The notes beneath the pieces are model-generated. The model made no database searches and was not told where the DNA came from. It was given only the letters and a program-made list of their open reading frames with translations. Shown here one piece after another: positions 14,009 to 61,178 of a DNA stretch of 64,000 nucleotides. The stretch comes from Chondrilla cf. caribensis (Eukaryota > Porifera > Demospongiae > Chondrillida > Chondrillidae), in contig OZ026563.1 of NCBI GenBank assembly GCA_964020155.1, positions 2,291,940-2,355,939 on the forward strand. The letters run 5' to 3'. Position numbers and translations under genes: made by a program. The stretch's first letter is position 1, and every line of letters starts with the position of its first letter.

Positions 14009-16041
14009 CTATTTTCCCTTTGGTAAGGTAGGATCCCATAGACACTGAGTCAAGTAGGGGGGCCTGGATGCTTCATGTGTGACTTCCTCCAAGAAGGATC
14101 TCGAGTTGTGGATGTACGTCCCACCTAAAATGACTCGACATGAGTGTGCTGCGGATACATCAGCTACAACCTTAGCCTCTGCATAAGTAGCTCCTCCCAC
14201 AATGAACACGATCACATCTTGCGGTTTGTAGTCGGGTGGAGGCCTGACCTCGTATGTCTCCACTGTAGGGTACGTCTCTGCCGACAGTTTCCCTTGAATG
14301 GCCTCAATAAGAATTTGTTTGAGTATGGGGACATGCCTGACGTATATGTTCGTTGGTTCCTCTTTCTCCTTCTTCGACTGGAAAGGATTTCTTACAAATT
14401 TCTTAACTTTTTCAATAGCCTTGTGCTTGGCAAATGGATCAATCACCCGCTGACTGTCATACTTAGCCATTCCGTCCAGGAACTACAAGGATTAAAGCAA
14501 ACACTAGAGTTAAATATAACATTATGTAACTGCATAATCATTGTTGAAACCACTATGCACTCACTGGAAGGCTATCTTTGTTCATTTTTACTAAAACATC
14601 TGTTACATCCTTTGCATCTTTGTACCTCAACTGATACAGTAGACCCAGCCGCACTTGATCATATGGCCTGATCTCGGGATTCTTGAAGAGATTCATCATT
14701 GCCTATCAGCGTAAAAGCAGTAAACGGCAGACATTAATGCATCAATTATGGAATCAACATGAACAAGTCCTTAGCAGTTTAAAACACTAGGCATGTAGGC
14801 TGCTAGGCACCTGCAACATTACAGCAAGAATCAATACAGTATAAAGTGTTCACCTCCTTGACTCTGCTCCTATCATCTCCTTCCACAATTTCCTGCTCAA
14901 CCTCTGAGACTGCCATCAGATGATGCATTTTCACCATGCGTGTAATCTCAGAGGTGAGGCCTACGTGCTTGAACGTTGTACTGGACAGCTTCTTAAATTC
15001 TGGAAAATTCTCAATAAAGGTTTTCATTTCTTCTATTGAATCCAGCTGCTTGCTGCCTGCTACTTTTGTCTGATATTCACGCATCAAGACTTGTGTAATC
15101 TCGCCTATTTCTCCATAATTTTTGTACATATTCTCTCTGATGAAATCATCATTCTCGGCAGAGAAGGTATATGCCTTTTCATCCTTGCTGAGTCCTGGCA
15201 TTTTAGAGACATCGATCTTGTTCTGTTCAATTGTCAACAACTCATGAGCCTGAGCGTGATAGTACCACTGGTTCAGGAGCGGCGTTGTGGCATCATTGTG
15301 TCGATCCAAGATGAGCAACAGAGGCGGGATTGTGCGTTTCTTCGACGCAGCTGCAAATTGACGGGGATGTGCCTGGTACATTTTTACTATAGCTTTAGCT
15401 AGCTCTTCCGTGGGGCGATTTTTCACATGGCGGACCACGGGCTTGCATTTGAGGGACAACAGAACAGACGTCAAACCCATGCAAGTTGAATCCAATGCAT
15501 CAATTACCCATTTACAACTTCCGGGTCTCAACACGTGTCTCAAGTTGAAGGTGAAGAGATTGTTGGTGACAGGGGTGTACTCTGTGTACATTTCCTTCAC
15601 TTCCTTGATTACCTCGTGCTCATCCGCTTTGGCGATTTGAGAAAGAGCGTTCTCCGTGCTCATGTCATCCTCCAAGTAGTAAGAGAAGTAGACGTAATAC
15701 GCGCAGAAAGCAGGTCTCTCCAATTCCCGGCACAGTGCAGCCACGTTCTCTTGGGTCGGGCGAATATAGACGATAGCATTCAAGTGCTTCATCTTCTGCT
15801 TTCTCTCGACATTGAGGAGCTCGTATAGGTAAACCCCTTTTTGGCCAAGGTCGGACTGATTGTACACTATACTCACCGTGGAGAGGGTCACCTTATCAAA
15901 CAGGAAAGCCTTCATTCCTTCACCACAGTCGGCAAGCATCTGATCAATGTACAACCTAAACGCCGCCATGAGGTCCATCCCAGTAGGACCCGTGTTGGGT
16001 GGTTTCTTCTCGGCTGTAAATCGCGCCACGGATACAGCCAT
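14009..16041 (-). CDS. VPS45: Sec1/Munc18-family vesicle-fusion regulator VPS45
   Basis: Three exons close in frame (599 aa): 16041-14854, 14702-14565 and 14482-14009. SM proteins clamp syntaxins and promote SNARE assembly; VPS45 acts on TGN-to-endosome traffic. Diagnostic stretches are GEGMKAFLFDK, KHLNAIVYIRPTQENV, the domain 3a signature PPLLLILDRHNDATTPLLNQW, SAENDDFIRENMY, FPEFKKL and near the C terminus DVIVFIVGGATYAEA and RVILGGTYIHNSRSFLEEV. The ATG at 16041 gives a ~20-residue N-terminal extension (MAVSVARFTAEKKPP) relative to human; an internal methionine in GMDLMAAF could be an alternative start. It shares a ~330-bp upstream region with the divergent gene at 16370. Confidence 0.95.
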
Positions 16042-16369
16042 TATTGCTTCGGTCGAAAAGGTTACGAAGAGTAAAACCCTTACAAAATGTCCGAACTCCT
16101 CCTTTTAGGGAAATTTGGCGCATTTAGTGTCGTTCCCATACCCACTTCAACGCACGTGATGTACTAGGATATTGCAACCACTAGTACTGCTGCCTATCAT
16201 GCGCCGATTGGTGGACGGTTTTCTCCAATGTACTTTCAGTGTTCCTAAATGGACCCTCCAACCACAATAGAGAGTAGCTTTTATCTATTAAGTAAATCTT
16301 AGTAGTATAAATCCTACAGGCGTTCTTTGGATAGTCGGTGATTCCTGATCCTCCGTTTCTGCTCGGACA
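16042..16369. promoter_or_regulatory. Divergent promoter region of VPS45 and the 16370 gene
   Basis: This is a 328-bp head-to-head spacer with no repeats or open frames of note. Promoter function is inferred from gene orientation only. Confidence 0.4.
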
Positions 16370-38323: not shown

Positions 38324-39214
38324 CACTACCAAGTCTTTACTACTTGACGTAATTGCTGTTAGACATAATATTGTTTATTATTGTGTAATAATGGGATGCA
38401 TTGATCTATTCTTGATTAGATGTGTACTGTTAATAAGCAATGACAGACAAAGTACAAACTATTGTCTACAATGAAATTTATAATTGAAACACTAGTGAAA
38501 CTTAGCAGACAAACAAATATTAAGCTGAACCCACTTGCACTTCTCTGTAATGAAATCTACTACAGTGGAACCTTTCATATCCGGGCGGTGTGGGACCAAG
38601 GGTGCCCGTAACTATGAAACCAACAATTCATTGGATTTGTACAACAATGAAAGTAGAAAATATGATATTCAGTCATCACTGTATAATAATATGTAAAAGA
38701 TACAACAATATCAGGTGTTACAGTCATTAATATTCTTGGCTTTCAAATGAATTGAAGTATGAAATGCAGTGATGTTCGTTTAAGGTTTTGCGCTCTTTTC
38801 ACTTGTCTGTGTTTTAGCTTTCACACACAAGTAGTTAAATCTTAAGTATTGTTTGTTATTGCCAGAAATACTGACGGCATTCCCTCCCCAGTAAATTAAA
38901 ATCGATTCCCCCCTCGAATTAATCGAACGCGTTTCATTTTAAAAGAACCTTCACTGTAGATAAAGCCGTTGCCGTTGTGTAGTTACATGATGCGACAAGT
39001 TGTCTGCATGTTATTGTGATGTGACATGTTCTATTAATTTTGTATCATGTCTACTTGGGGTATATCCGATTTGTCACGAGTCTAGTCCCGCCGGCGCGAA
39101 GCGCCCGAGGGCGAGTAGATATGATACAAGTACACAGAGACTACTCGTCTACAGGAATACCACGAATAATAAGCAAGCGCTTCAGCTGTTACATGTGTGG
39201 AGTCGCGGAAGAGG
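38324..39214. other. Spacer between CFAP77 and Speedy with repeat fragments
   Basis: It holds a tacagtggaacct end at 38561 that resembles the MITE tips at 12840 and 17069, with a tcactgta end near 38950, but the two ends pair poorly. A second element is at 39041-39128. No gene seen. Confidence 0.5.
39041..39128. mobile_element. MITE copy related to 10695-10784, in the Speedy 5' region
   Basis: tgtatcatgtctacttgggg followed by tatatccgatttgtcacgag matches the copy at 10695. The far end gagtagatatgataca mirrors the left tip. It carries a GC-rich centre (cccgccggcgcgaagcgccc) and lies 87 bp upstream of the Speedy start codon. Confidence 0.7.
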
Positions 39215-40027
39215 ATGGTGACTGTCCTGAGTTTCTTCGAAAATCCCGAAGAAGAACCCTATTCCAAGCGGTCCCGTTCTTCTAGAGTTGAAGAATGTGC
39301 TCCTTTCAGTTCCTGCAGTATCTTGTCGAGAAACATGCCCAGAAAAATTCTACAAAGGCAGCGTTCACCCGGGAACGTCTGCCTGACTGCTTTTTTCCGT
39401 CTTCTAGAGAGTGAGGTTGTTCAGGATTTTTTTCTTGTTGACTGCTGTGCCAAAGTCGCAGACAAATACGCGGTAGCAATGGCCTACGTGTATTTTCGAA
39501 GGGTTAACCTGTCTGTTGACCAATACACGATACTCAATTTCTTCGTTGCTTTATACCTGGCCAACGACATGGAAGAGGACGAGGATGACAAGTATGAAAT
39601 ATTTCCGTGGGCTCTCGGGTCTAAGTATAGAAAACGTATACCGTACTTCCTGAAACTGAGAGAAGAAATGTGGAGGAAGATGAATTACAGAGCAGTTGTG
39701 AGCTGCAAGACATGTGAAGAGGTAATTGCAATGGCTCCCAATCATAGTGTGTGGAAGCGCACCCGTCATGACCATCACAGTGGAGCTAAGAGAGGCTATT
39801 TGCATTCCACTCATGGTGTTCCCGGCATGAGATGTGAAGACTGTAAAAGCCTCCGTGACATCTCAAATCAAAGTTGTGATGACAGCATTAATGGTAATTT
39901 GAATAAAGAGAATCATCAAAAAATGCAAGTACCCCCAAAGCAACCAGAAGTTGAGGAACAATGTGATATCCTTGATGAAATTGATGCTGCTAGTCGAAGT
40001 CAAAAATGTATCTATTACAATATATAG
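39215..40027 (+). CDS. SPDYA: Speedy/RINGO cell-cycle activator of CDK1/CDK2
   Basis: A single open frame of 270 aa. RINGO proteins bind and activate CDKs without cyclin and act in meiotic maturation; SpeedyA also tethers meiotic telomeres. The Speedy/RINGO box spans residues ~55-190: [87 protein letters not shown], followed by the basic [11 protein letters not shown]. This matches vertebrate SPDYA in every helix. The ATG at 39215 ([14 protein letters not shown]) is the first in frame after upstream GTG codons. The N terminus is Arg/Ser-rich and the tail acidic. The gene has no intron here, whereas vertebrate SPDYA is split, so a retrogene origin or ancestral intron loss is possible. Confidence 0.92.
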
Positions 40028-40779: not shown

Positions 40780-41931
40780 TTACACCTGTTGTATCACTTT
40801 AGCATCATTTATCCTCTCCCAAAATAAATCCGTTGCATATTTATACAGCCTCATGTCTAGTTGGTTCTTCTTAATCACAAGAGAAGTTTCTTCATTGGAG
40901 TACAAAGTTGTCCTGTTTTTTGGTGTTTTTTGAGTAAAAGGGCGTACAAAGCGAACACCAAAGGTGTACTCAAACAGCATCTGACTTTCATACTGAAATT
41001 CTTGCAGGGCAAAATATGACAATTGTTTAAGGTTGTTCATTGCACTAGACAGTAAAATTTCCTCTTTCTGGTATGTCGTGAAACTTTTATCACATGGAAC
41101 CAGTGACCAATCTGCTAACATGAATGTTTGCCGGTTTCCAGCAGGGTTGAAAGGACACTGTAGAAACTGTTTGAAAGACAGTGTTGTTGAATTCGCACCA
41201 TAAAGTTGAAAACACTGGAAAAAACGGACAAATCTGTCATTACATGAATCAACAGAACGGGACATATCCCATCCATGCCCAAAGGAGCGATGCAAGTGCT
41301 CATATTCACTGAAGTAGCGATCAACAGGGTTCCTCATTACAGTCACATACTTGTACAAACGGTTAGTCGTGTTATAGGTTTCCTTATAGAAATCAGGTAC
41401 ACAATCTTGGAGCATAGTCCAGTCTGCGTGTACGCCACACTTCCAACCGGTGGTGTACCTTGAAAACAGCCACGTGTCCTTTCCCAGACGTCTAGGACAC
41501 GTACACATATGTACGAGTTGACTGTGTCCTCTTTGCGATACTATGAAAGGATTTATCGGATGTCGTACTTGCAGGCTTTTAGGCCCGAGGTCGGCTCCAG
41601 TTCTAGGCCAACATAAACAAGGTGTGGGGAGTATCAGATCTAAAAGGTGGAGTCCGAACAATGAGCCAGAAGTCTTCTGAATGTGGAGAAATACCATGAC
41701 GTCTCTGTCCTCGAAGTTAAACTTCGTGCTGTTGCTGCTAGCGCGGACGGTTGATTCTTTGGACACCGAACGGTTTGAGGACTCTACTTTTGCGGGGATC
41801 CATAAGGATGGCATTTCACTCCGGTATACAAAATCGATGCGCATCCACTGATTATGAGTGAATGCGATTAGCGATGTTACCAGAATTGCACTGAGGAGAA
41901 TGATGGCAGACACCTTCCTTTTTCTTTTCAT
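40780..41931 (-). CDS. HS6ST: Heparan-sulfate 6-O-sulfotransferase
   Basis: A single exon of 383 aa. The enzyme transfers sulfate from PAPS to the 6-O position of glucosamine in heparan sulfate, in the Golgi lumen. It is a type II membrane protein: basic MKRKRK, then a hydrophobic anchor (ILLSAILVTSLIAF, residues ~10-25). The 5'-phosphosulfate loop is VFLHIQKTSGSLFG (family FLHIQKTGGT, with Ser for Gly). CTCPRRLGKDTWLFSRYTTGW and CGVHADWTML (with the family's catalytic-type His) follow. The 3'-phosphate loop is VMRNPVDRYFSEYEH, and further family blocks are NRQTFMLADWSLV and LFEYTFGVRFVRPF. N-glycosylation sequons occur in the stem (NRS, NST). Length fits the family. It is head-to-head with the sacsin-like gene, 307 bp between start codons. 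Confidence 0.93.
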   Translation of the reverse strand: MKRKRKVSAIILLSAILVTSLIAFTHNQWMRIDFVYRSEMPSLWIPAKVESSNRSVSKESTVRASSNSTKFNFEDRDVMVFLHIQKTSGSLFGLHLLDLILPTPCLCWPRTGADLGPKSLQVRHPINPFIVSQRGHSQLVHMCTCPRRLGKDTWLFSRYTTGWKCGVHADWTMLQDCVPDFYKETYNTTNRLYKYVTVMRNPVDRYFSEYEHLHRSFGHGWDMSRSVDSCNDRFVRFFQCFQLYGANSTTLSFKQFLQCPFNPAGNRQTFMLADWSLVPCDKSFTTYQKEEILLSSAMNNLKQLSYFALQEFQYESQMLFEYTFGVRFVRPFTQKTPKNRTTLYSNEETSLVIKKNQLDMRLYKYATDLFWERINDAKVIQQV

Positions 41932-42238
41932 GGTGTTTCTTCCTTGGCCTAAGACATATCCAGTCTTAGACTAGCTAGTTAACTGACTAGAAGGACATCT
42001 AGTCGCTCTGTAAAATGTCTGTTCCTTTGTCCATCAAACGCCCAGAAGGCGTGGAGTTGGTGTAGCAGGACGCCTTCACGTGCACGGCAATATTCTGCGA
42101 AACGGCGACGTTCCTGGAACGAAAAGTACTTGGAACGAAAAATCGTTTTCTCTTTCACTTTGTGAAGAGTAGATTCTGGAGGAGTAAGACTTAAGGAAAA
42201 TCGAATAAGCTATCTCTACTGCAAAAGTAGCGTCAACC
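41932..42238. promoter_or_regulatory. Divergent promoter of HS6ST and the sacsin-PARP gene
   Basis: A 307-bp head-to-head spacer, relatively GC-rich compared with its surroundings. A near-duplicate ttcctggaacgaaaa / acttggaacgaaaa lies at 42111-42140. Promoter function is inferred. Confidence 0.4.
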
Positions 42239-45200
42239 ATGAGCGAGGCGAGCTCTGGTGATTCAGACGAAGAACCAGGTAAAGAAATTGTGTACTGATC
42301 TGCATGCATAAGCACGAGTTGAAATGGTTCTATGTTTCAACTGTCCATATTCAGGTCGTTTTGGCACTCGTCAGGCTCCTCTAACAACGCGTCTGAAGAA
42401 GATTTTATCAGATTACCCACCAGGAGCCCAAATACTAAAGGTAGGTCTGCATTATTCTGATCTGTTGCATGGGACTCAGTGAGTAGCACGCATCACGGTG
42501 CTCGTGTGGATTGCATTAACCAACACTCGCCATTCTATTTGGTATAGGAGTTGATCCAGAATGCTGACGATGCTGGTGCTACAAAGGTAGCTTTCCTGAT
42601 TGATCCAAGAACACACCCAAACGAAGACTTACTGATGAAGTCCTTGTCAGAGCTTCAAGGACCTGGTCTCCTAGCTTGGAACAATGCATCATTTGAAAAG
42701 GGAGACTGGACCAATATTGGAAGACTGGATCAGAGTTCCAAGGAAGGGAAAATTCTGAAAGTAGGGCGATTTGGGATTGGATTCCAGTCAGTCCATCATA
42801 TCACAGGTGAATATAGCTAATATCTCCCTATTAATAATGGCAATCAGCTATTAATAGCAGATTAAAATAGTATGAATTTAACATGAGTGTCCATTTTAGT
42901 AATTTGTTTCGTTAAAACCACATTTGTTACACATGGGATTCAGTAAAAACTAATTTTGAAGGTGCTAAACAAACAATGATTTTAAATGTACCTGTAGAGC
43001 TGCTGTATGGCCAGCCTCCTCTCCAGATCTCTCCCTACTGTAGAGTGATCTGGCATATTTGCTCAATATTTTGACTAAACAGAAAATTAGAGTTATAAAA
43101 CATAACATAGCAGGACCCCTCAGATATTGTGAAAAAATGGCAAAGGTTTGAACATTATCTGATATTCACTCATTATAATAATTATCATTTATAATGTACA
43201 ATAATAATAATAATTGTACATTGAGATGGTGAACGACCATATCAGGGAAGAGCTAGAACACACAATGCATGGCAATCGGACGTTTTTACAACACTCATGA
43301 ATTCATTGTTGCAACTCTTTAATATTGTGTACAACATGTGATTGCACTAAGAATATCTATACATGAACCGAGCAAATAAAGAATAGAGGCAATAAATTTA
43401 CATACTGTATGACAGGAAATTTTGATGGGAATTATGTTTGGGAAATTTCTGGAAATTCAGACTTCTTGAAGGCAAAACCTCAAGTGTGTGTACTAGTAAA
43501 ACACATAACCTATTATTATAATAATATTATGTATAGAACTGTACATCATACTCATACAATATTATTATAATCAACCATTTGCAAAAAGTAAATTTCAATT
43601 TGACATTTCTTTCTCCTTTACAGATATTCCCATTATTATCAGTGGTGACACAGTTGGCATCATTGATCCCCATACCCACTTTATATGTGATATGGAATTG
43701 GAAGATGAATCCAGTACTGGGAAGAGATTTCCTCTTCGTAAGGCTAATCGTCACAAGGATCAGTTCGCACCCTTTGAAAATCTCTTTGGATTTACATCCG
43801 ACACAAGTCACTACAATGGGACATTGTTTCGTTTTCCCTTCAGGAGGACCTCGTACCATAAAACCTTCTCAAAGAAGGAGCTGAAGTCAAAGATTTCAGA
43901 CAAAATATTTACAGCAGAAGGAGCTATACGGGAGCTCTTTGATACACTCTATGAAGAGGCTGCACATCTACTGTTATTTCTGAAATCCATAGAGTCTGTT
44001 GAACTGTACACCTGGGACACAGCCGAGAATAAGATGAAACTGTTTCTTCAAATTTCTCTTTCAGATAGCTGTCTTCCCCGCATTCGACAGTTTCGCCAGA
44101 CCTGCCAAAACAGTTGTCAGTTTGATCGGTCAACCACTGTACTGGCAACCTGTTGTGTCTGTCTCCTCTTACAATCAACCCAGAAACAGTTCAATTGGCT
44201 GTTGTGCAGCACTGTTGGCAGCTCTGATGCCAAGCTACTGGAGTTAGCCGCTAAGCTGAAGGTTACTCCGTGGTCTGCTGTTGCAGCTCCCTTGCCGTTG
44301 TCAGTAACTGTGGAGTGTATTGCCAAATGCCACCTTGTCACACCTCGAATGAATAGTGAGACAGTCATGCAGACATTGTCCCACCATTTCAGGACCCCTG
44401 CAGAGATCGCAGATGACTGGAGACCTCCAGAAGAACAACAAATCGGGTACCCTTTCTGCTTCCTTCCTTTGAAGGACCCCACAGGTCTTTCCATTCAGGT
44501 CCATGGCTACTTTCGTGTTTCCAGCAACCGTCGTAGCATTGAATGGCCTTCTCCAGGTGATACTGGCGAGCAGGCTATTTGGAACCAGCACCTAGTTCAG
44601 ACATCACTGGTGCCGTCATATGCCATTCTTTTGGCTGCAAAATCCTTCCTCTTCACCTACTCAAGGTCCCTGAAAGACAAGCTTTTTTGGGACCCATACT
44701 CCTGGTGGCCCTTGGAACAACAGATACGAAACAGCCCTGTGTGGAGGGATATCCTTGAACCAGCCAATCTCTTACCATTCATGTGTGGGCTCAAGCTCTT
44801 TTGGAGTCCCTCTAATGGTGGTCAGTGGATCAAGGGTTCTGATGCTGTCCTAGTGACAGAAGGTACTCCACCTCTCATTGTTCGCTTACTGATTTCCTTT
44901 GGCTGTCCAATTGTGAATCCACCTACTCCCGTTAAAGAAACCTTCAACTCTTTGAAGGATGTAGATGTACTTAAGGAAGTAACTCCTCAATATGTGCGAG
45001 AGCAGCTGAAGAAGATACCCAGCCAGTGCCTGAGAGACCTTGAACTCCTTGTTGCTGTACTGGAGTACATTGTATCTGACCTCTCCAATAATTATTCAGT
45101 TCTTGAAGGTCTTCCCGTCATCCCTGTAGCTAACTCGGAATCTGCACCTGTATCATTCTGTAGGTCAAATCTTCCCTGGACCACTGAACGAATATTCATT

Positions 45201-48200
45201 GTTACTGATCCCGATGTGTACAAGCTTCTCTCGAATCTTAAGGATAAGATGATTTCTCCTGATCTACCTGATCACCTTACAAGTATATTCCGTACTATAG
45301 CTCGTTCGGGAGAGTACACATTAGCAGAAGCCACACCGGAGGAAATCTGTCCTCAGCTTATTTCTGAATCAATGAGAAAGTGGATCGGCAAACTGTCACA
45401 CAGAGTACAGTGGACACCAGAAAGAAATGGTATGCCTGGGAAGGACTGGCTGAAGCTGCTGTGGAAGTGGACACAAAAGAATAGTGTGTCCTTGCTTGAA
45501 TTAAAGGAATTACCCATCATTCCTCTACAGTCAATAGATGTGACTACATCGTCTTCTCTGGAGTTAGTCTCGACTGACTTCAACCTGTTTTGCCTGAGAC
45601 GTCCTGCACAGAGTGGTAGCATGCCTGAAGAAATGTACAGAATAGCACAAACTTTGGGGTGTACTCTCATTGACCACTCCAGCATCTTTGTACACCACAC
45701 AGAAGAACTGGAACAGCTATTCCCTACAATGACTCCACAATCACTCCTCAGTAAAATGAGGTCCAAGCCACGGATCATCAACAAAGTTGTGTCTTTGGTA
45801 AATGAGGACAAAAATATCCTGAGGACTTTTCTCTTTCAAGTATTGCTACAGAGACCTCAGGGTGTTTGGGGATACTTGAAATCATTTATATCCACTCCGC
45901 ATGGTGACCAGTTGTCTCAGGACCTTATAGACTTCTTCAAGTCTTTGCCATTTTTTGCCGTAGGAGTCGGTGCATCATCTGTTTCCTATATGAGTCTTTC
46001 TGATCCTTCTGTCATTTTCCCTCCTAACGACATCAATACCTTTCCTAGTGATGTTCAATTCCCTCCCAAAGTCCTCCGAGTGTCACCCTCAGAGAGGACT
46101 GGTTACAACATCCTGCTGACGGAACCTGTTTCTCATAGTCACTTCATTACTGGGTGTGCATCTTTTGCCTTGGATCTCACTTCTGCTATGAAAACTAAGG
46201 CCTTCATCTGGATATTAAAGCAGTATCGGTCAAACAGGGATCAGGATGTGCGGGAGTTCTTGCGTGGAATAAAACTTCTACCTTCAATGAATGGAGTTTG
46301 GAGGCAAGCTGACCAGCTGTATGATCCTGAAGACAAGACACTGAAGCATATGTTCTTTGACTCACAGTCGTCCTTTCCAGCATCTGAATTCCAGTTCTTT
46401 CTCCCTGAACTGAGAGAGATTGGACTCCTGACATGGAAGTCAGTAAAGGACAATCAATCCCTATTTGAGAACTTTGTCACAGACAGGGCACGAGCAATAT
46501 CAAGGAGTTTGCCATGTAACTATGATAAAGCTAAAGAATGTTCAAAGAGTATTTTGAAAGCAATACTTGTGAGGGATAATTACAGTGCCACTTTTTTGCC
46601 TCAGCTGAAAGAAATCAACTTTCTTGCATGTGAAGCCAATCCTCCTAAAACTTACCCTTCAGAGCTACACTGGGCAGGAACAGGCATGCCTTGTTTCCTG
46701 AGACCAGTGTCAATGTGTACCGGGGGTAGGTTGGACCAAATGGCTAATCTTGTTGGATCCTCCATGCCAGTGGTGTCATCAGAGTATTTGGACACTATAG
46801 TGCAACTGTATCCCAAGCCCGCCTTCAAGGGATTTTTCAAGACTAGCATGATGGATGCTGTCTGTCAACACCTCACCAACATTGTATCCCTCCCCAAAGC
46901 AGTGTGTCAGAGGTGCGGACCATACATCACAGAAATGATGGAGGATGTGTACAGATACTTGAACAAGAATTCTTCCGCCATCAATCCACATCTTACGCCA
47001 CGCACAATGTGGCATGAGCAGATTCGCATGTTCTTGCCAATTGACATGGTTGCTAAAGAAACAGACATTGATGTTTCCCTTGCTCCTTACCTTTACAACC
47101 TCAAAGACCTACCAGGAGCTCTCAGGTATGAAGAGCTGTGGAATGCTTTAGGTATCAAGGCGAAACACATTCCATCAGACTATTGTCGAGTGCTGGAGGA
47201 GATTCGAAAAGAAACAGTTGCTAATGATCGAAGTCTCTCGGACCATCAGGTCACCATGGTTGTTCACATTTTACAGTTCCTTCATAAGCAGTCATTCTCA
47301 GGAAGTGTCCTTATGCCCACTGCTGAGGGTAGGCTACTATCAACACAGAAATGTACTTATGATGATCGCAACCTCTCCGATGCAAAACAGGGTTTACTCA
47401 ATACTCGCAAGGATATCACATTCACACACAGGGATATCCCAAAGGCTATTGCAATATACTTTAAAGTCCCTCCTATTTCAAGTAAGATTGCCAAGCCGAG
47501 GGGGTTCCAAGTGAGAAGTAATGTGCACTTCAAAGGTCAAGAAATCCCTCTCACAAGGCGAATCAGTAACATCATCAAAGACTATGAAGACAGGATTGAT
47601 GTATTCAAGGAGTTAATCCAGAATGCTGATGATGCTGGTGCTACAGAAGTGAAGTTCTTGATTGACTGGAGACAACATCCAACAGAGGACCTGATGTCAG
47701 CAGGTATGAAACATTGGCAAGGACCAGCTCTGTACGCCTACAATGACGGTGTTTTCAGAGATGAAGACTTTGAACATATCTGTAAAGTTGAAGGTGGCAC
47801 AAAACTGAACGATCCCACTAAGATTGGTCGATTTGGTCTTGGTTTCTGCTGTACCTATCAGTTGACAGATGTCCCTAGCTTTGTCAGTAGGAGGCAGTTG
47901 GTGGTATTCGATCCACACCTCCATTACCTTGGGGAATGTGCATCCAACCAAACTGGGATCATGATTGACTATGTGTCTGAAAATACTGATATGATGTCAT
48001 TTTATAAGGACCAATTAGTGCCATTTCAAGATGTATTTGGGTGTAATGTACTAAACCCACCTAGTGAAGGGGACGGTGGCTATCCTCACACACTGTTCAG
48101 GTTTCCATTCCGAACAAAGTCCACACCAAGGTCTGACATCTGTGGCAAGGTATTTGATGAGGATACAGCTTGTGAATGGAAAGAGTCTTTCAAAACATCG

Positions 48201-51200
48201 GCTGAAAGAATGCTGGTGTTTCTTCGACATGTCAACAAAGTAGAGCTTTATGAGGTGAAAAGAGGAGCATCTGTTGCTGCCATGAAGTGTGTCTGTTCAG
48301 TGACTTCAACAGTTGAGGAACACAGGGGTTCTTCAGATCTAGTGCAAGAATACAGACTGTCACTGCAGCAGTCCTCACAGTACCTGTACAATATGCCAAT
48401 AGAGAGGAAAGGGATGAAAATCAAGAGAATTTGCATTGAAGTTTATAAAGGCTCAGGCAGTGCTAAATCCAAGAAGTCAAAAGGTGGCAAAGTTGTATCT
48501 GATGTTTCACACCAGCTGTGGATGGTGTCGTCTGTCCTGGGAAGTGGTAATAGCCTCAGAATGGCATGCAGTGTCTATGGCAGATCTAAAGGCTTGGTAC
48601 CTTTAGCCGAAGTAGCAGTCAAAGTAAGTAGAGAGGGGTCTCTACTGCTCCCAAAACCTTGTACAGGACAAGTCTTCTGCTTTCTACCACTTCCAGTATC
48701 CACTGACCAGAAATGTTTGATTAATGGCTACTTTGAAGTGTCTACTAGTCGTCGCAACCTCCTCCACCTACAAGCTAGGCAGTTGGGAGAGAAGAATGAT
48801 GACCACCGGTGGAACCGCTGTCTTATCCAGGATGCACTGTCAGAAGTATTCGGAGACATGCTGGCAGACCTTCAAACGTGCAACTGTGATAACATTCAAT
48901 TACCAGACAGCTTCTTGGCCAGCTATTATCGTATCTGGCCCATCCTAGACTCTCAGGATGACATCAGTAGAGAGTTGAAGGGTGAGTTCATGAAAGGTCA
49001 ACTACTGTCTGCTGACCCTCGGCCACTATTCTACACACAGTCATGTGAGTGGTGTAGTTGTAAAGAAGTTTCTGTACTGAGTAAAGCCTTCCGAACAATC
49101 TTCGCCAAAGCTGTTCCTGATGCAGTTACAATATTGACAAAATATGGAAACAAACGAGTAGCATTGAATGTACCAGAAGAAATATTGACAATGCTGCAAG
49201 CGAACATCAATGTGATCGAGCCCATGATGTACATCAGAGTTGTTTTGTTACCAAATCTGGAGCAGATTGGAGACGATGACAAAGAAATGAGAGACAGGCA
49301 AATAAGGCTCTTATTGCAGAGGTTCAAAGCACTAGAAAGTGAAGATGAAGGGCTGACCCGCCTCATGAGGAGACACTGTTGCATTCCTACAGAACCACAT
49401 GGTACTTTGAAGAAACCAGAAGATCTTATTGACAGCAGTAGACCTCAACTTGCTGGTCTCTTTGATGTGGATGAAGAGCGATTTCCTTTGAAAGATTTGC
49501 TTCAGCGCAAAGAACAAGCACAGACTCTGCGTCAATTAGGAATGGCTGAATACACTTTAAATGATGCTGATGTCATTGATAGAGCAGAAACTGTTCAAGT
49601 TATAGTCTCTGAGAATGATGTCAAGAAGGCTAAGATGAGGAGTGTGAGATTACAAGACTACATAACCAAGAAAGGTTATCTTCCTGCTCACACCAAGAAA
49701 AAACTGGAGGATATCCCTTTCCTTCCAGTAAAGCAGCGACCTCCTAACATCAGTGTACCATGGTGTGGTGATAGTCATTTTGGAGCATCATCTCAAATGT
49801 TTGATGAAAAGCACATGGATCTCATTTTCACCACAAGAGTTGTTGCTGATTGCAAGTCCAACATTTATGATATCCTGCAGTTCCGACCCCGTCCCATTGC
49901 AAATGATGTCATCTGTCATTTGAATGCATTGCATGAATGGGAAAAGAGCCACAGTCCCCTGCAAGGAGAAAACAAAGCTTTCATTTCCAAAAGCATTGAT
50001 TTGGTTTACACCTTCTTGGACAGGTCATTAAGGAAAAAGCAACACAACATATATTTCAACAGTGTCTGGGATGACAATAGTGGTACTTTTGTACAAAATG
50101 GGAAGCTGTCCCTTACTTCACCAATTAGTGTGTCCCTTGCTCCTTATCGTTTGACGAAAAAAGAGATACCAGCATTGAGGAAACATGACACTCTTTGGAC
50201 AACTGTTAAAATTTCAAAGCACTTATCTGTACAGAATTTTATTGACATCCTGGCAGAAATGGCTGCTTCCTCTGAACCACTCAATAAGGAGATGATAACT
50301 GGTATCCTTCAGTTCCTTCTTGGCAAACTGAGTGAAGAACAAAAGAGAAATGTGTTGTTGCCGACAACAATGTCAACATTAGTGCCATGTAACCAGTGCT
50401 ACTATGATGACCGACACAGGGATGAATGCAAGAGGGGATCTCACTTCCTCAAGAAGTACACTTTTGTTGACTCACTTGTTGTGTCTCAACCATTAGCAGA
50501 GTACTTTGGAGTCTGTCCAATATCCAGCAAACTAGGGAATCCTGAGAAGCTCAAGATGAAGTATGAAGAGAAAGGTCAAAGGATTCCAGTATCTCGAAGG
50601 ATTAACAGAATCCTAACAGAGTACAAAGAAATGAACGATGTGTTCAAGGAACTGATCCAGAATGCCGATGATGCTGGTGCTACTGAAGTAAAGTTCTTGA
50701 TCGATAGAAGACAGCATCCAACAGACACTCTTTTCCAACCAGAAATGGAAGACTTACAAGGACCAGCACTGTATGCCTTCAACAACAGTGTATTTAGCGA
50801 TGAAGACTTCCAGAACATTTGTGAGTTAGAAGGAGCCACAAAGAAAGACAATCCAACAAAAATTGGTCGTTTTGGTCTCGGATTCTGTGCCACCTTTCAT
50901 TTGACTGACGTCCCAAGTTTTGTTAGCCGAGACAAGGTAGTTTTTCTTGATCCTCAAATGAAGTACTTGAATAAGGTAACTTCTGAAGGAGGTGTACGGT
51001 TTAACTTTGTTAGTGAAAGAGCTGAAATAGAGGAATTCTACCATGATCAAATGCTGCCATTCCAACATGTGTTTGGCTGTATGATACTTGGATCAAAGGA
51101 TGAGTATAACGGTACACTGTTCAGGTTTCCTTTCCGGACTGCAGCACAAAACGATAGTGAAATTATTAAACAGATATTCAAAGATCAGGAAGTCAATGAC

Positions 51201-54200
51201 ATGAAAGAGTCTTTCATGTCCTCAGCTCACCTGCTGCCTGTGTTCTTGCAACATGTGAAGAAGATTGAGTTGTGGGAATTGGAGAGGAAGGCTAAGGACC
51301 CTAAGAGCATGAAACTAGTGTTGTCCGTGGAACGTGATACACCTCGTTCATTCCAACCACTGGAAGTGTTCAAAGACAACAGAGATAGTGGTTCCCTCCC
51401 ACAGTACTCAGCAACGGAGCAGTTTAGTGTGACTACTAAGAGGATGGCCATGAAGACAGGTCCCACCAAGAAAGTTTCTTCTAAAATGACAACTTCATCC
51501 ACCAAGTGGATTGTTGGATCAGCTCTTGCCAGACCTGGTTCACAATCATGGAAATATGCCTGCTCCCACAAAAATGATGGACTTGTTCCTCTCACTGAGG
51601 TGGCAATCTCCACAAAGGGACAGTCAATGATTCCTAACCTACGTAGTACAGGACATATCTACTGCTTCCTTCCTCTACCCATTGTCATCAACGATCTACC
51701 CTGTATGATGAACGGATGTTTTGCTGTTCCTTCAAACCGTCGCACCTTATCAGATCTAGAGAATGAAGATCAGAAAACATGGAATCACTTTCTCATCAAA
51801 GAAGTATTAGTAGAAGCCTACCTGTCTCTACTACGCTACCTAACGACCACAATGCCAACAGAGGAAGCTGCTTTTAAAGAATCACTGGCTGCATACTACA
51901 AACTGTGGCCAATAGCTCGTTTGAGTCATCCTGTTAGCAAGGAGCTGCGTAAAGGATTTTTGACAGCTTTAAAGTCCTGTCAACTCCCTTTAGCATGCAT
52001 TCCATTACAGCAAGGACAATGGCTACCTGTCAATCAAGTTAAAGTCTTGGAAGTTTCTTTCTACAGTACAGTTTTATCTCCAATTCGAAATGAAATCCTG
52101 AAGGTACTGCTTGACAGGGGGTACAAAGTTGCTGAATTAACTCAAGACATTAGAAAATCACTGACGTCTGAATCCCACTCTGTTGTGTTAACATTCACAT
52201 TTTCCACATATTGCCATGATGTTTTGTTGAACAACTGGGATGTGGATGATGCTGAATTGAGAGATAATCAGCTCCTTTATGTTCTGGAACACTTCAAGGC
52301 TTTGAAAGAAGAACATAAATGGTTGGAAGACCTGCTGAAGACCTCTCCCTGCATCCCTTGTGAGCCTGACGGTACAAGATGTCTTCCAACCACACTCATC
52401 TGTCCTGAAGGAATGCTGAAGGAATTATACAATGTGGAGGAGAGACGGTTTCCACAAGATAGATTCTTACAGAGCGTGGAAGTGAGAAAAACCCTCACAG
52501 ATCTAGGGATGTCACAATATTTTTTGAAGGATGAAGATTTACTAGATAGAGCTCGGACAATTGAGGACCTGCCACACATTCAAGCTATGGAAAGATCCAA
52601 TAGCTACATTAGGTATCTCACAGCAGTACGTTTTCGTCATTTGTTGATGCAGAACCGTGCTGGGACTTTCAGCACTCACACCGTTGGTAATCCTGTACTT
52701 CATCAACTGCAAGAGATTTCTTTCCTTCCTGTACGACAACGACCAAAAGATACTACTATTCCTTGGGCTGGTGACAACTGGAATTTTGCCTCTCCAAACT
52801 CTCTGTATTATTCTTCATTTTCTCACATAGCATTCACCCAAGGACTTATCTTAGCAGAAACCAGCCGAGATATTGAGGATCTGTTCACATTCAAAGTCCC
52901 AATTCCAGATTATGTTGTAGATCACTTGGAGACTATTATCAGTTGGGTAGAGGAGCTGGATGATGAATCTCTCTCAGAAGCTAATGCTGTGTTTTTGGAT
53001 CATGTCATGCCTGCAGTCTACAGCTTTCTAAATAGAGAAGTCCAACCTGCTAAGATGTACCAGTCAGCCATTGAGAAGAGTCCTGGCGAGAGGACATTAG
53101 AGACCAGATTGTCTAGACTGTGCACACGACCCTGCATTTGGCAGAGATTGGGATCTGAAGGAAGGTTCTTAACTCCTGCTCAAATTGTCACGTCTTATCG
53201 TCATACAGATTGCTATCCATACCTAGTCAAACTGAGCAATGTGAATGGGAAGTACTTACCTCTCTTTGAGGTACTTGGAGTAAAGAAGGTTCTTACACTA
53301 TCTCTACTGGTACAAGTGCTGCAATCCATCAAGGACGACATGGATGGCAAACCAGTTCCAGAGTCCATGTTGGATTTCATAGTTGACATTTCCTCATTGT
53401 GTGGTCAGTGTCACCCAACACAGAAGGTGTATGGAATGAATATAAAACTATCTAAAGAAGACACTAAGAATTGGGACAAATGGAAGTTTTTTCTTCCTAA
53501 TGAAGATGGTGTGATGTCACAATCTAATCAGCTTGCCTACAGAGAAGATATAGCATCTCGGTTCTTCCTTGCTGAACTGTTGGAGGGACAAACCCAGTAT
53601 GTACACCCACGTATACACAAGCGAGATGCTATATGTTTAGGAGTGGAAGATGTACTTACCAATATTAGGTGTGAATTTCAAGACAATGAGTTTCTAAAAG
53701 AGGTGGAGTTTGGGCAACACGAGCATCTCTGTACCAGACTCAATAACATCCTGTCACAATATCCGTGCGATGTGTCAATTTTCAAAGAGTTCATTCAAAA
53801 TGCCGAAGACGCCACAGCCAGTGAGATAGCCTTTGTTGTTGATCGAAGAGATACATTTGGAGAAAAGTCCTTGATGGCTGACAATGCCAGTTGGAAATCT
53901 CTTCAGAGAATGCCTTCACTGCTTGTATTCAACAACCGGATGTTCGAAGAGAAAGATATTGAAAGTATCAGGCAGCTAGGAGTAGGTGGCAAAGGAGAGT
54001 CATTGGACAAGATTGGTCGATTTGGGATTGGATTCAATGTAGCCTACCACGTCACAGACTGTCCCATGTTTGTATCATATGGAGAAGGTGGCCAAGCAAA
54101 AAACTTCTGTGTGTTTGATCCCAACTTTCACTTTGTGCCCAAAGCAAGATGCAAACAGCCAGGAGCAAGGTACATTATGAAGAATGTTGATGGAAAAAAT

Positions 54201-57200
54201 AGCAGTGAACACTTTCAAGACCAGTTTGCTCCTTTTCTCGTAGACATTATTCCCACAGTGGCCTCCACCATTGATGGCTGCTTTGATGACTATTCCACCG
54301 GGTGGCCTTCTGGTTTTGCTGTGTTTCGCTTGCCATTGACTAGATCAGCAGAATGGTCTAGTACACGTTTAAATACAAAATTGAAGAAAGGGCATGAAAT
54401 GAATGTTGAAGAGCTTCATTCACTGCTACAAGACTTAAAGTCACAGGCTCCCTCAATGTTGATGTTCCTCAGTCACTTGAAGCGGATATCTGTGTTTGAA
54501 ATATCTAAAGATGGTCGGGTAGTTGATCCCTGGTCTGTGGCTGTTCGTCACACAGAGGATGGAGCTAGGAAGTGTGCTGCATTTGCCCAAAATGTACATG
54601 AAATATGCTCCAAGATCTGCAGCCAAGACAGCTTAACAACAATTCCACCTAGTCTAATTGTGACCTACAGTATTGACGTGAACATTTCAAGACCAGATTC
54701 ATCATTACATAGAGCAGAAATGACAGGTACTCGCACGTCCTCTTCAGTACACAGGAAATACACTAAATACCATAGCTTATCGGCAGAAGATAAAGGACCA
54801 TTGAATACACGTGACCCTCCAAAGCATTGGATCGTTAGCAAACGCTTTGGAATATCAGATGTACCAGAAAGTCTCTTGTACCTAGCAGGAGACAACCATC
54901 TCTTTCCAATAGCAGGTGTGGCTGTACCCATCACAGACCAGAGGTCAGGAGAAGAGTTCACTGGTAAGCTCTTCACTCACTTGCCCCTCCCACTGGAGAG
55001 TGGTATTCCAGCTCATATTAATGCTCACTTTTGGGTGGACCAGTCACGTAAACATTTGGAAAACACAGGATCTGGAAGGACAGAACCATTAAAAGACTGG
55101 AATAAGGTGTTAACTCAACAGGTTGTATCCCGAGCATATTTGGAGGTATTACTCAAGTGTAGAGATTACGTTTTGAAAAAAGATGCAAGCTCTGAGAAGT
55201 GGTACTACAATCTGTTTCTCACAAGAGAAGGATTATCACAAACTTTAGATGGTTTCAACTTGAAAAATGTTATTTATAAACTTCTTCTTGAGGGTGAAGC
55301 TGAAGTACTGTTAGCTGATGAGCTAGAACAAAAGGATCCCGGGCTGAAATGGCTAGCGTTGACTGCCAATCAGCAGAATCCAACCAAAGGATGGTTCTTC
55401 ACTGGTCATGAAGATATCAGGAAGGTTCTGCTGTCTCTAGGAGTACAGATTACAGTAGCACCTGTGTCAGTGAACCTTACTGCTAATATGTGCCATAAAA
55501 CAATTTTCTTCGCAGCTGAAATTAATGTGAAGACTGCCTACTCTGGTGAAGTGACCCCAGAACTTGCCAGGAAATACCTCCAAACACCTGCTCAACACTG
55601 CAGTGTCAGGAAAGATGTGATTATACCAGCTCTAGTACCTCTCCTGCAATATGTACTCAGTGATATCTCATCTCCTGAGGAGTGTTACAAGGTGGATGGA
55701 CTACCGTTGATGTTGACATCCAATCACCAATTTCAGCCTATTGATGTCAATATTCCACTTTACAAACAGAAGTTTATCAACCTTCTACCAAAGCACAAGG
55801 CTCAATATTTTATTTCTCCGTTATTAATGCAAGATGAATCCCTGAGAGCAAAACTGACACAGTTGAAACTCGTGCAGCTTGTCACACCTCAGTTTGTTGC
55901 TGGACACATTCAATTGGTGAAGCAACCAGTGGTAGATCTTTCCAAATGTGACTGCAGCTTGCTTGTCAACTTGTGGAAGTACCTTGCACACATGGCTACA
56001 ACCAGCTCAATATCCCTGGATCATTTCTCTGAGGTTGCCATTATTCCTACTAACCAGTCAACCTTAGTGTCTGTTGACATGGCAAAATCTATACTGAGAG
56101 AGCATGGGTCTGTTCGTTTGCTTAAGAAGCTAGCAGTACCTGTGGTGAATTTCTCAGTGCTTAGTAATCTAGGACATTCCTTGACCAGCAAGTGTACTGA
56201 CCTTATTCGTCTGCGATTGGCTGTAGAGAACAATCCAAATGAAGTGCTCTATGTACTCCAGACAGCACTTGAGCAAAGTCGACTTCAGTCCTGTACTGAT
56301 ATAACGGACAGTATTGCCTATGAGTTCATTACATTTGTTACAAACAGCCATGATCTGAAATCTTATAGGAAGACCTTACGACACCTGGCCATCTACAAGA
56401 TGGTGAATGGAGAATGGCAATCATTGAAAGTAGGCCAGCAAGTGTATGCTCTCCCGCAGGAGAGGGTACCTCGTGACGGTCTCAAGGATATCCATGACTC
56501 ATACCACTCTTCAATGATTGAGATACAACCAGGTCATACTAACTTCTATGAAGCTGTTGGTATTCAACTTCTCACTGGACCAGTTGATTTCTATCAGAAG
56601 ATTATAATCCCAAACTTTTATAGCCTTTCCACTGAAGCAATGATTGTTCACCTACAGTACCTGACAAGGAACAGGATGCAAGGTGGATATTCTGACATCC
56701 TGCAGCAATTGAGTGTAATTCGCTTTATTCAAGAGGGAAGGAGGAGTCATCGTTGTTGTGTGTCAGATTATTACGACCCAGAAGTGCCACTGCTGAGGGA
56801 ATTTCTCCCTGAGGACAGCTTCCCTCCATCACCTTGGTTGGAGCACCTGGACATCCTAAGACAGATTGGACTCAACACTACTGTCACTGACAGCCTTTGG
56901 ATACAGTTTGCAAAAAAGCTGGCACCTTTACCAGAAAGTGAGGCCAAACAAAAGTCTCAACTACTGCTAGCATCACTGCAACAACGAATAAGGAAAGTAT
57001 TGTTTCCAGATATGCTACCTTCTACTATCTCCAAGACAGTAACTGCTGAGGACAGACGGAATCTTGTTCAATTCCTTCGGTCAATTGCTGACATCCATTT
57101 TGTTCCTCGCCAATACTCTCCAGAGGTTGATTTGCTGTTTCATCAGTTGAAAGTTGATGATCATTGTTCACCAAAGTTTCAGTTGGTTTGTTTCAGAAAT

Positions 57201-60200
57201 TCATTCCTTTGTGAACCTGGACAAGCACAGTTAATATGCTTAACCAGTGCACACCCTCTTGTGGAGTCTACACAGTTGATTGGTCGATGTATCCTAACGA
57301 AAGAAGCAAGAAAAGTCTTTGTGAATGCTTTGAGCATGAAACTGCCCACAATTAAAGATGTGTGTCAAAACTTACTAGAGCTATCATCTGCTGTTGATGA
57401 ATGTACACTGTCCTCCAAGCAGTCTGTTGATGTTACTAGAAGGCTTCTATCTCTTTTTACTGATCTGTATAACTTTATCTGTTCCAAAGACCTGAGTGTA
57501 GTGAAGGCTGTATTGAGTGATAAAAAGTGCCTCTTCTCACCAAGTGATGATGGCACAACATTCAGGATATCCAAAGGCTCTGAATTGGTCAGAGATCATA
57601 ATATCACCCCTCGTCCATACATGAAGAAGTTACGTTGCCTACCTTCATACCTCAGAGATCCAAAATACACATCTTTACTCACTGAAATTGGAGTAATGTC
57701 GACTATCTCTGTGGAACATTTCATTCGTCTGATGTATACATTGCATGCATCAGATGAATCTTCTAAAGATCCTAATTGGAAAGAGTGTGTTAAAGCTCTC
57801 TATGAAGACCTTGTGCATTTCCTTCGAACGTCTCGAAACAGAGATGACATAGAGTATGTACACAACTGTTCATGTGTCCCATTACCAGATGAAGGGATGG
57901 TGTTACGTCCATCAAAGCAGCTTATTCTAAATGATGCCCAGTGGATCAAGAGCAGGCTGGATGAAAGTTCAGAATACCATTTTATATTACCTCCTCCTCC
58001 ACTCCAAGGTGGAGGGGATATTACCCTGCCACAGTGTCTGAAAGTGAAGGCCCTGAGTACACTTGTCTATGAAGAACTGGACAAAGATGCTGTATTAGAC
58101 AGGGAAAATCGTTGTGAAGGTGATTTGAGGGCAGAAATTAAAGGAGAGGGCGATACCCATGCTGTGATCCAGGAGTGTCCTTATTCCGGTCCATTTGTCC
58201 ATTTTCTCCGATCTGAGGAGTTTGAGACTGGTCTGAAACGATTGATAAGCCACAGTTTGAATGGGAAACCACTCACTAGAGAACACCTGGACAGTATTCA
58301 GGAGGTCCAAGGGCTTGAAGTGAAGTGTGTATATGCCATTAGAACAGCACTCAAGAATAGTAGTACACAATTTACTATTCCTGGCAGTGAGAAAAATGAT
58401 GTTCCTTGTTACCTTGATGAAGGATCCTCTCCAAAGTGTCTCTATGTGAGATTTCACCCCAAGAATGGCGGACAAAGGAATGTCCTACTTTTGCAACAAG
58501 TTGTACGAAAGTTAATGAGGTTATTGAAACGTAATGTAGAAAGCGCACATTTACTATCATTGTTGGAATCATGTGATCCAGAGAAAGTTAAGCAGACCCT
58601 GGATTGTCTTGAAATTAAGCCTTACAGTTCACAAGATGATGAAGATGCTAGTCTTTTAACTGAGGAGGAAGGACGTGGGACTGTTATTGAAGACTTTGAG
58701 TACATTATGACTTGTAACTTTAGAGAAGATGACTTAGTCAAGTACTGCAAGGCTGACAGTGAGACTGTGGTTGCCAGGGTGATAAAAATGGAGAGTCCAG
58801 ATGACCTGAGGGAATATCCCTACCCTCTCACAGTACATTTGAAGATATCATCTGATGATGAGATTAAAGTAAACAAGATGAACTCTTTGTTGGTTTGTAG
58901 ATTCCTACCACAAGCGGAAGTAGCCCGGCTAAAGACATTGTACTGTATCCAAGGTTCAAGCAATCCCTCTGGTCTGTCTGAGGAGAAGAGCATTGTACTT
59001 GAACTTCCTTGTGGAGAGAAACGACAACTCAAGACCTACATCTCTACAGTTCTAAAGACTGTTCAGAGGTTGTATTCCAAGGAACAGATATACTTCAGTA
59101 TTGAGAGACTCCTGTTTCAGCTACACTTTGACTGTGTACACAGGCACAAGCAACCTGAGATGTTCCTTCAGGCAGTCCGTACATTCTTGATTGAAGTTGA
59201 GAGAAAATTGGATAATGAAGAAAATAAGGCATTTCTGGATTCCCTTCATGCTAAGATCTCAACCATGGAATCTCAGGTCCAGTCAAAGCCGCAGTCACAA
59301 TACGAGGAGGAAGACAGTGAGATGAGCTCTGTAGCCTACAGCCAAATGAGCTCGTGGTCTGTACCATCTAGCACACAACAACCTGTGGGAGCTCCCACCA
59401 ATACTGCCACCATTGGGCACTATGGTACAGGGTCCACCTTTCAAGGTACTCCAGTACTTGCTTCTGCTCCTACAGGCCACTCACAGCATCAAAGAAGGGT
59501 AGGTGGTGTGAGAACCAACTATCCGATTCATCCTGGCCCTGCTGGAATGCAAGGTGGAGGTGCTTATATCTGGGGAATTGGACCAGGTCCTTCTCCTGGT
59601 ACTGGTCAAATTTGGCCTAGTTCTGTTGTTGAACCAACCCCTGAACCACCTCCAAGAGTCAGCATGGATGATGCCCGTGTGTGGTTGAGAGATGTGTCTG
59701 ATACAGTCAACATAGTTAACCACTTATGTCAACAAACAAGAGAAATTGAAGTTTTAGGACAAGATGGAGAGATGGAGAGAAGGGAGGCATACCAGTACCC
59801 TGCTGCAGTCTGTTTCTACGCCCATGAGATTGTTCTCAAGTGTCTGAAAGCTCTGTTCTTTGCCTACTGTGGTCTCCCAGGAGAGTTACGGGAATGCAGT
59901 AATCTGGTGGAACTCCACCAACAGCTACTCACTCATGCAGAAATCCCCCAACCAGTGAGAGACCTGGAGATGTACGTTCACTTGGTCAGTGGACACGGCT
60001 CAACCTGCTGTGGATACCCTTCATTTGATCCACCTAACACACCTAATGACACACACTCTCCAATAGCAGCCAGAGAAGTACTAAGAGCAGCAAGGGCTTT
60101 TCTGGATGGTATCAAGAGTTTACCCGAAATTCGGCCATATTTCTCAGCTAGGGTGGATTTGCCTCGACCGCAAGCTCAATTACAAGGTAATGTACAAAGT

Positions 60201-61178
60201 TGTTATGTGTTTAAGGTCTTGCTTGTATTGTACATAGATGTATTGGGGTTGTTGGGAATGTTCATACTGTTTGTGTTGTCAAACAAGCTTTCATATGGCT
60301 TCTTGTATAGTCAACATTATAACTATTATGTACATACTATGAACACAAGGACTCCATGTCCAATTTACTATGAATTCTGACAATTACGCTACATTTGAAT
60401 TTACAAATTGATGTGGAAAAAAATATGTTTTATGGGTGAGGTTAGATGTCTGGTAGACAATGTCCAAACATGAGCACTGCTAATTGCAATCCAATGTGGT
60501 TCTGCACTATTTTCATTGTGGAGCTGTGGTGCAGTTGTAGCTACTGTACTGTGTTTTTATATACCTGTAGATCGTCCAGACACCTGGGAGGGAAGTGGCC
60601 TTCTTGTACCAATAGATCCGCACAGCAGAGAGTACAGAGAAATTGAAGGACTCTTCAGAAGCACCATGCCATCATCTCGTATAGAAAAGATCGAAAGAGT
60701 TCAGAATGAGAGTCTTTGGAAGCGCTTCAGAGACTGTAGAAGAAGAATGGAAGAACATTTCCCATCTGCTGGAGAGAAGAAACTCTTTCATGGAACCAGC
60801 CAAACTAATCCTAAAGACATCTATGGTGGAGATGCTGGATTTGATCTACGTCACAGTGGTACTGGGATGTGGGGAGTTGGAAGTTACTTTGCAGTCAATG
60901 CATCTTATTCCCAAAGATACTCATACCAAAAGAGGGTCCTTGGCCAGTCTAATCCACTCCACCAGATGTTTGTGGCTAAAGTGTTGACTGGTGCTTGCAT
61001 AAGGTTAGATCCAGACCATCAATTGCGATTCCCTCCAGAGCGCACTGACCAGCAAGAAGGCGATGTTAAGATCAGGAGAAGGCACGACAGTGTGCAAGGA
61101 ACCACAAGAGGGTCTGAAGTGTACATCATCTACGACAACGCTCAGTCCTATCCAGCCTACCTTATTACCTATACCTGA
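42239..61178 (+). CDS. Giant sacsin-like protein with four GHKL modules, J-like, HEPN and C-terminal PARP domain
   Basis: Five exons close in frame (5,851 aa): 42239-42278, 42355-42440, 42548-42806, 43624-60186 and 60571-61178. Four sacsin-type GHKL ATPase modules start near residues 43, 1457, 2470 and 3516, each with (K)E(L/F)IQNADDAGAT-like box and GRFG(L/I)GF. Each is followed by FCFLPLP...GYF.VSSNRR-type SIRPT sequence and helical linkers. Around residue 5287 a J-like segment (SIERLLFQLHFDCVHRHKQP) has HFD for HPD. HEPN spans ~5475-5627 (DARVWLRDVSD, YPAAVCFYAHEIVLKCLKA). The last exon encodes a PARP catalytic domain (~5650-5851): KLFHGTS, GVGSYFAVNASYS, EVYIIYDNAQSYPAYLITY, giving H-Y-V at the H-Y-E positions, as in mono-ADP-ribosyltransferases. 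Sacsin is a mitochondrial/cytoskeletal co-chaperone; the added PARP suggests ADP-ribosylation of clients or an immune role (inference). Confidence 0.9.
42807..43623. other. Intron 3 of the sacsin-PARP gene with MITE fragment
   Basis: AT-rich 817-bp intron. catactgtatgacaggaaat at 43401 matches the left arm of the 8303-8468 hairpin element; the right arm is missing. Confidence 0.55.
59040..59215 (+). other. Degenerate J domain inside the giant protein
   Basis: The segment TYISTVLKTVQRLYSKEQIY, SIERLLFQLHFD, then PEMFLQAVRTFLIEVERKL aligns in position and helix pattern with the J domain of sacsin (family core RLYLKWHPDKNPEN...VFKHLQNEINRL). The HPD tripeptide needed to stimulate Hsp70 ATPase is HFD here and the basic loop is altered, so Hsp70 activation is doubtful. 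Confidence 0.6.
59664..60120 (+). other. HEPN domain inside the giant protein
   Basis: MDDARVWLRDVSDTVNIVNH opens the domain, as EARRWLRQA does in sacsin. The closing YPSFDPPNTPNDTHSP and AAREVLRAARAFLDGI also match sacsin's C terminus. No catalytic RxxxxH motif of HEPN ribonucleases was seen at the usual place, so a dimerisation/nucleotide-binding role as in sacsin is more likely. Confidence 0.8.
60571..61178 (+). other. PARP catalytic (ART) domain exon
   Basis: The entire ART fold is encoded in the separate last exon, after a 384-bp intron with standard donor and acceptor sites (CAAG|gtaatg, cctgtag|ATCG). Catalytic His at ~5723 (LFHGT) and Tyr in SYFAV are present; the third position (eight residues before the Gln of DNAQ) is Val. 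Confidence 0.85.

Follow-up and report, generated by a model that had tools for sequence, protein, structure and literature searches.

A sacsin-type gene carrying a PARP catalytic domain on its last exon in the demosponge Chondrilla cf. caribensis

The window, i.e., the whole stretch of 64,000 nucleotides analysed from the demosponge Chondrilla cf. caribensis, contains a sacsin-type gene (T1) composed of five exons with GT..AG at every exon border and giving, once spliced, a single frame of 5,851 residues with a stop only at its end. The features of this gene are the following:

42239..42278, +, exon 1: 13 codons from the ATG on, one extra base and a GT donor, with the frame continuing into exon 2
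42355..42440, +, exon 2: start of GHKL module 1, placed by the spliced frame
42548..42806, +, exon 3: N-box ELIQNADDAG and G box KVGRFGIGF of GHKL module 1
43624..60186, +, exon 4 (16.6 kb): last part of GHKL module 1, followed by modules 2-4 with linkers and HEPN
43624..44039, +, remainder of GHKL (SACS) module 1: SACS positions 109-243, C18:2335547-2335978
47547..48275, +, GHKL (SACS) module 2: 254 bits, E..N and G boxes intact
50586..51308, +, GHKL (SACS) module 3: 265.1 bits, boxes intact
53718..54512, +, GHKL (SACS) module 4: 196 bits, boxes intact
59124..59132, +, His-Phe-Asp at the aligned position of the canonical sacsin HPD: J domain not recognisable
59802..60107, +, HEPN domain (CCGYPS): Pfam 21.5 bits, Arg of catalytic type replaced by Gly
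60187..60570, +, phase-1 intron between HEPN and PARP: 384 bases, GTAATG..CTGTAG
60571..61178, +, exon 5: PARP14/15-type catalytic domain and stop, Pfam 81.8 bits
60789-60791, 60885-60887 and 61119-61121, +, catalytic triad in exon 5: His, Tyr and Val, respectively, from alignment with PARP15 and PARP14

Taken alone, the big frame of exon 4 runs over 5,623 codons from stop to stop. Exon 1 supplies an N-terminus of the same length as that found ahead of RFGT in P0076, a JGI protein considered below. The sequence of T1 is not a local assembly error, since P0003, an ORF of 5,562 residues on an ENA contig corresponding to the T1 protein without its first exons and PARP, is 99.98% identical to it over 5,498 residues. 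The exons on either side of the last intron join in phase 1 (60186/60571), and the Pfam match in exon 5 covers profile positions 1-197 of 199, i.e., the full catalytic domain. The first-pass annotation, which had described a continuous reading frame with PARP in a separate last exon joined in phase, is borne out on both points.

In T1, the Pfam SACS profile scores 332.6 bits in one piece and 435 bits in the next, and both the E..N box and the GRFGxGF box are kept in all four GHKL modules, the first of which is split over exons 2-4; the four sacsin-type modules initially annotated are thus recovered. As in human sacsin, repeated GHKL/SIRPT modules are followed by a C-terminal HEPN within a single giant exon, with three modules in the human protein versus four in T1 (3 or 8 elsewhere in the genome), and module 1 of P0076 matches the human SR1 structure 5v44 (E 1.4e-60). 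Human sacsin also has an N-terminal ubiquitin-like domain (PMC8745260), for which T1 has no room because only about 14 residues separate the start Met from GHKL module 1. As such, the claim of an order as in human sacsin holds for the GHKL modules then HEPN, but not for the N-terminus. Unlike human sacsin, moreover, T1 ends with PARP and lacks HPD.

The HEPN domain annotated in T1 falls just under the Pfam cut-off (21.5 versus 22 bits) and is upheld by profile matches, a profile made from nine HEPN copies matching the HEPN structures 1ufb (E 1.6e-4) and 1o3u (E 3.6e-3), and human sacsin HEPN (3o10) at E 0.4 only. Four of the ten sacsin-PARP genes of the genome, which are presented below, are above this cut-off. 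At E 1e-3, the genome profile search gave no HEPN match in the six tandem copies T1 to T6, where HEPN rests on alignment, with a segment identity of 86-89% for T2-T5, and on the tail for T6. The Rx4-6H motif of HEPN RNases is not found in the six tandem copies, Gly replacing in each of them the Arg taken to be the catalytic one; this Arg is retained in the other four genes. In the family to which T1 belongs, HEPN is probably a non-catalytic part, dimerising or nucleotide-binding.

All 49 SACS matches scored in the genome can be assigned to ten genes, located as follows:

C18, six tandem genes, T1 (the window gene) to T6
C18:2551501-2582050, -, seventh gene of C18, eight GHKL modules: 9,227-codon open frame with nine SACS matches, the reading covering the 3' part only
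C11, two sacsin-PARP genes
C21:1730001-1744875, -, one sacsin-PARP gene, with its SACS and HEPN on separate open frames

In all ten, a PARP match lies downstream of SACS on the same strand, and no PARP-less sacsin occurs among the scored SACS matches of this genome. The number of GHKL modules is 3, 4 or 8 depending on the gene. The intron separating HEPN from PARP is in phase 1 in T1-T6, as well as in the other four genes, where it was read directly from the DNA.

Sacsin repeats with PARP were also found in three further proteins when other organisms were searched, namely P0076, P0126 and P0124, the latter from Amphimedon. In P0076 (4,823 aa on a JGI contig of 15,455 bases), HEPN leads to PARP unbroken. 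Its HEPN side is identical at 222 of 222 residues to the genomic ORF P0020, up to ...HLQQEEEQ, where P0020 enters an intron and stops and P0076 continues with DRPYNWEG and the PARP domain; this point of divergence is the same phase-1 place as the T1 join. P0126 (4,611 aa on 14,732 bases, JGI) is a second unbroken HEPN-PARP protein, 50% identical to P0124 over the HEPN-PARP part. From contigs too short for introns like those of T1, we infer that P0076 and P0126 are transcripts. P0076 as a whole looks like a chimeric assembly or a recombinant of two paralogs, with residues 110-1000 being 92% like P0014; its HEPN-PARP stretch is consistent with one paralog type, and only this C-terminal stretch is used as evidence.

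A wrong joining of two adjacent genes, one for sacsin and one for PARP, could be suspected on the grounds that the two parts sit on separate exons and that many Pfam records of genomic ORFs are devoid of PARP, the latter because the ORF ends at the intron. Against this stand the same intron phase in 10/10 genes and the contiguity of P0076, P0126 and P0124. A PARP gene with its own start is further spoken against by the exon frame, which in T1 has no ATG ahead of the domain, the first Met being residue 32 of the exon, and none of the six array copies has a start codon there. A wrong joining is thus highly improbable, and the PARP exon is considered as part of the sacsin gene.

Respective to its catalytic domain, exon 5 has PARP15 as its best PDB match (E 7.4e-24). 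The alignment with PARP15 and PARP14 places the NAD+-binding His and Tyr in T1, with Val as third residue; PARP15 has Leu there. A Glu as third residue is the mark of poly-ADP-ribosylating PARPs, and members of the PARP14/15 group, with His-Tyr and a third residue other than Glu, are mono-ADP-ribosylating. Of the 13 aligned sacsin-PARP domains, 12 retain His and Tyr, i.e., those of 9/10 genes of this genome and 3/3 relatives, with Val (9) or Ile (3) as third residue. As His-Tyr is kept and Glu is replaced by Val or Ile, mono-ADP-ribosylation is predicted for the sacsin-PARP domain. Not all copies would be active, since at the triad positions the C21 copy shows Arg, then His, then a deletion, and its frames are split; it reads as a pseudoenzyme or a decaying gene. 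The predicted structure of the PARP domain is poor (pLDDT 51.6), and its Foldseek matches to PARP12/15 (TM about 0.5) agree with the sequence and add little.

PARP14 and PARP15 share with T1 the catalytic domain, but they carry macro/KH/RRM/WWE domains where T1 has a sacsin body, with no macrodomain nearby. In the genome profile search, no macrodomain match was found on C18, C11 or C21. The genome contains 52 macrodomain matches, most of them on C23, and further PARP matches on C23 and C4; the macro-PARPs are located elsewhere, apart from the sacsin-PARPs. In a 23-row PARP tree, the vertebrate PARP14 are set apart (91/100) and three non-sacsin PARP exons of the genome are mixed, without resolution, among the sacsin PARPs, which leaves a one-time acquisition of PARP unsupported.

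The J-like segment of the first-pass annotation does not hold. When compared with 53 canonical sacsin J segments, the T1 segment reaches an HHalign probability of 0.6%, HPD is absent and a J domain by sequence was rejected; at E 1e-3, no DnaJ match lies inside the ten sacsin-PARP genes. In a sequence alignment of sacsins, WHPD occurs in those from Oscarella, Sycon, Actinia, Acropora and sturgeon at the position where PARP-fused rows have LHF. or similar, and the sacsin of Branchiostoma belcheri has HPE. Among the matches listed, a [WF]HP[DEN] pattern occurs within the last 900 residues in 53 of 153 proteins. In a tree of the last GHKL module with 149 rows, all four PARP-labelled rows fall in a clade of 73 rows supported by an SH-aLRT of 88, i.e., below 95, in a tree rooted at midpoint. 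This clade has no HPD row, with the absence being weaker for some ENA rows that are incomplete, and the 53 HPD rows belong, without exception, to the other 76. The deepest fork of this clade divides it into 32 and 41 rows, and each half includes PARP-labelled rows, ENA ORFs ending at the intron being unable to show PARP; the fusion is thus older than the divergence of the Amphimedon and window sides and, as read from the alignment and tree, HPD would already be gone by then. Mutation of the HPD His is reported to make human SacsJ defective in binding Hsp70 (PMC9779362). Since the PARP-carrying rows are without HPD, the chaperone link to Hsp70 was probably lost, not kept, in sacsins with PARP.

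Between array copies, dN/dS of the PARP exon is 0.32-0.71 in 14/15 pairs and 0.05 for T5-T6, and that of the big exon is 0.32-0.40; the PARP exon is under purifying selection, somewhat less constrained than the big exon. Over whole exons, no pairwise dN/dS exceeds 1, i.e., no positive selection is detected among array pairs. A 98-codon end piece with a dN/dS of 1.99 between T1 and T2 was set aside, its dS of 0.04 being too little. In 14 of the 15 pairs, dS peaks in the middle part of the protein, e.g., 0.17 N-terminal, 0.82 middle and 0.19 C-terminal for T1-T5, with T4-T5 being nearly flat (0.17, 0.20 and 0.18). T4 changes its nearest copy along its length, from T3 to T6 to T1: over the N-terminal fifth, and again near 2100-2500, this is mostly T3; through a large part of the middle it is T6, and near 4600-5600 it is T1. 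This pattern of constant ends and a varied body is as gene conversion or unequal exchange would give. A similar concentration of diversity, between the Hsp90-like and J parts, is described for an Acropora sacsin-like gene (PMC8626496). T5 and T6 (C18:2441731 and 2469205) are near-identical (big-exon dS 0.009, PARP exon dS 0.041), as either a recent duplication with later exchange of the 3' end or an assembly duplication would give.

The gene model, the architecture found in 10/10 genes, the contiguous relatives, the triad kept in 9/10, the loss of HPD and the mosaic divergence are best explained, and rather probably so, by a demosponge sacsin family whose output shifted from recruiting Hsp70 to mono-ADP-ribosylation and whose recombining tandem array fits a stress or immune effector. 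By analogy with sacsin and Hsp90 relatives, the GHKL body, of ATPase type, would bind unfolded or foreign targets, and the modules with intact boxes would cycle with ATP and hold the target. HEPN may pair two chains, dimerisation being described for human sacsin (PMC9779362, PMC8745260), and this pairing would bring the terminal PARP close to the target or to the twin chain, so that one ADP-ribose could be transferred to the target, the partner or the protein itself. That GHKL/HEPN selects and PARP tags, as first suggested, is compatible with the predicted anatomy. The role would be in stress or immune defence, not in routine folding. Nodavirus repeatedly induces sacsin in fish, in reports also listing PARP14 (PMC8875540), and, in Acropora, a response to an immunogen and old haplogroups are described for the sacsin-like gene (PMC8626496); a defence context is preferred on account of these responses, the behaviour of the array and the uncoupling from Hsp70. 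A tentative extension, possible at best, is an innate-defence receptor-effector family derived from sacsin, in which arrays would vary the recognising GHKL body and the constant N-terminal and HEPN-PARP ends would deliver mono-ADP-ribosylation; if true, this would be a chaperone-derived counterpart of receptor-enzyme immune proteins.

The same anatomy could also serve stress proteostasis, with a chaperone for misfolded proteins whose PARP would label clients to be triaged or degraded, or would regulate the protein itself, and with the array providing dosage. Sacsin is indeed described as a chaperone-type protein (PMC3710099, PMC8745260), and both the boxes kept in the four GHKL modules and purifying selection across the whole gene would fit, but HPD is lost, and the variation in copy number, module number and mosaic structure is unusual for a pure housekeeping chaperone, making this alternative somewhat unlikely. 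Catalytically dead PARPs exist, and the PARP end might act mainly in binding or as a scaffold (NAD+ or ADP-ribose sensing) or else be decaying. The catalytic residues gone from the C21 copy and the upper dN/dS of 0.71 in the PARP exon point this way; retention of His and Tyr in nine genes and all three relatives speaks against it and renders it improbable.

As to previous records, the combination had been put forward as new, which stands in that no description of a sacsin-PARP fusion was found in the literature searched, as far as the sources were covered, but P0124 is already in NCBI as 'PREDICTED: sacsin-like [Amphimedon queenslandica]' (4,699 aa, SACS and a terminal PARP), and there is here a family of ten genes. 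The HEPN-PARP part of P0124 is 39% identical to that of P0076; its record differs in being a prediction with a name omitting PARP and HEPN below the Pfam threshold. PARP occurs in at least three SACS proteins among the 153 compared, the protein search having listed 120 of 2,245 matches, and only to that extent is it absent from the sacsins of other animals. In the portions covered of two surveys including Amphimedon, 'PARP' does not occur in the main text of that on HEPN (PMC3710099) and sacsin is not mentioned in that on PARP, where all six PARP14-like Amphimedon proteins carry a macrodomain (PMC4245714). The former proposes the Amphimedon sacsin-DEATH proteins as lineage-specific fusions for host-pathogen conflict; these have a DEATH adaptor and no enzyme, whereas the T1 family ends in a predicted enzyme. 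Both halves are known, then, and the joint is undescribed in the literature searched, though it already exists in a database as a predicted protein. Sacsin, encoded by a gene involved in human disease, has a function still under debate. A lineage in which the Hsp70 link was probably dropped and an ADP-ribosyltransferase placed after HEPN would indicate that the GHKL body can drive another output, and targets labelled by the PARP end would reveal what sacsin bodies bind. It would likewise give the antiviral-type PARPs a chaperone-type body, and an early branch of the animals a candidate for a diversifying defence family.

Around T1, a sulfotransferase-type ORF (40780-41970, -; Pfam Sulfotransfer_2, 50.5 bits) lies head to head with the start of the sacsin-PARP gene, about 270 bases apart. 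The window further contains a Speedy/RINGO (Spy1) ORF (39173-40027, +), a Sec1 family ORF (14803-16104, -) and, at its left end, a DnaJ domain match (116-301, -) unrelated to the sacsin genes.
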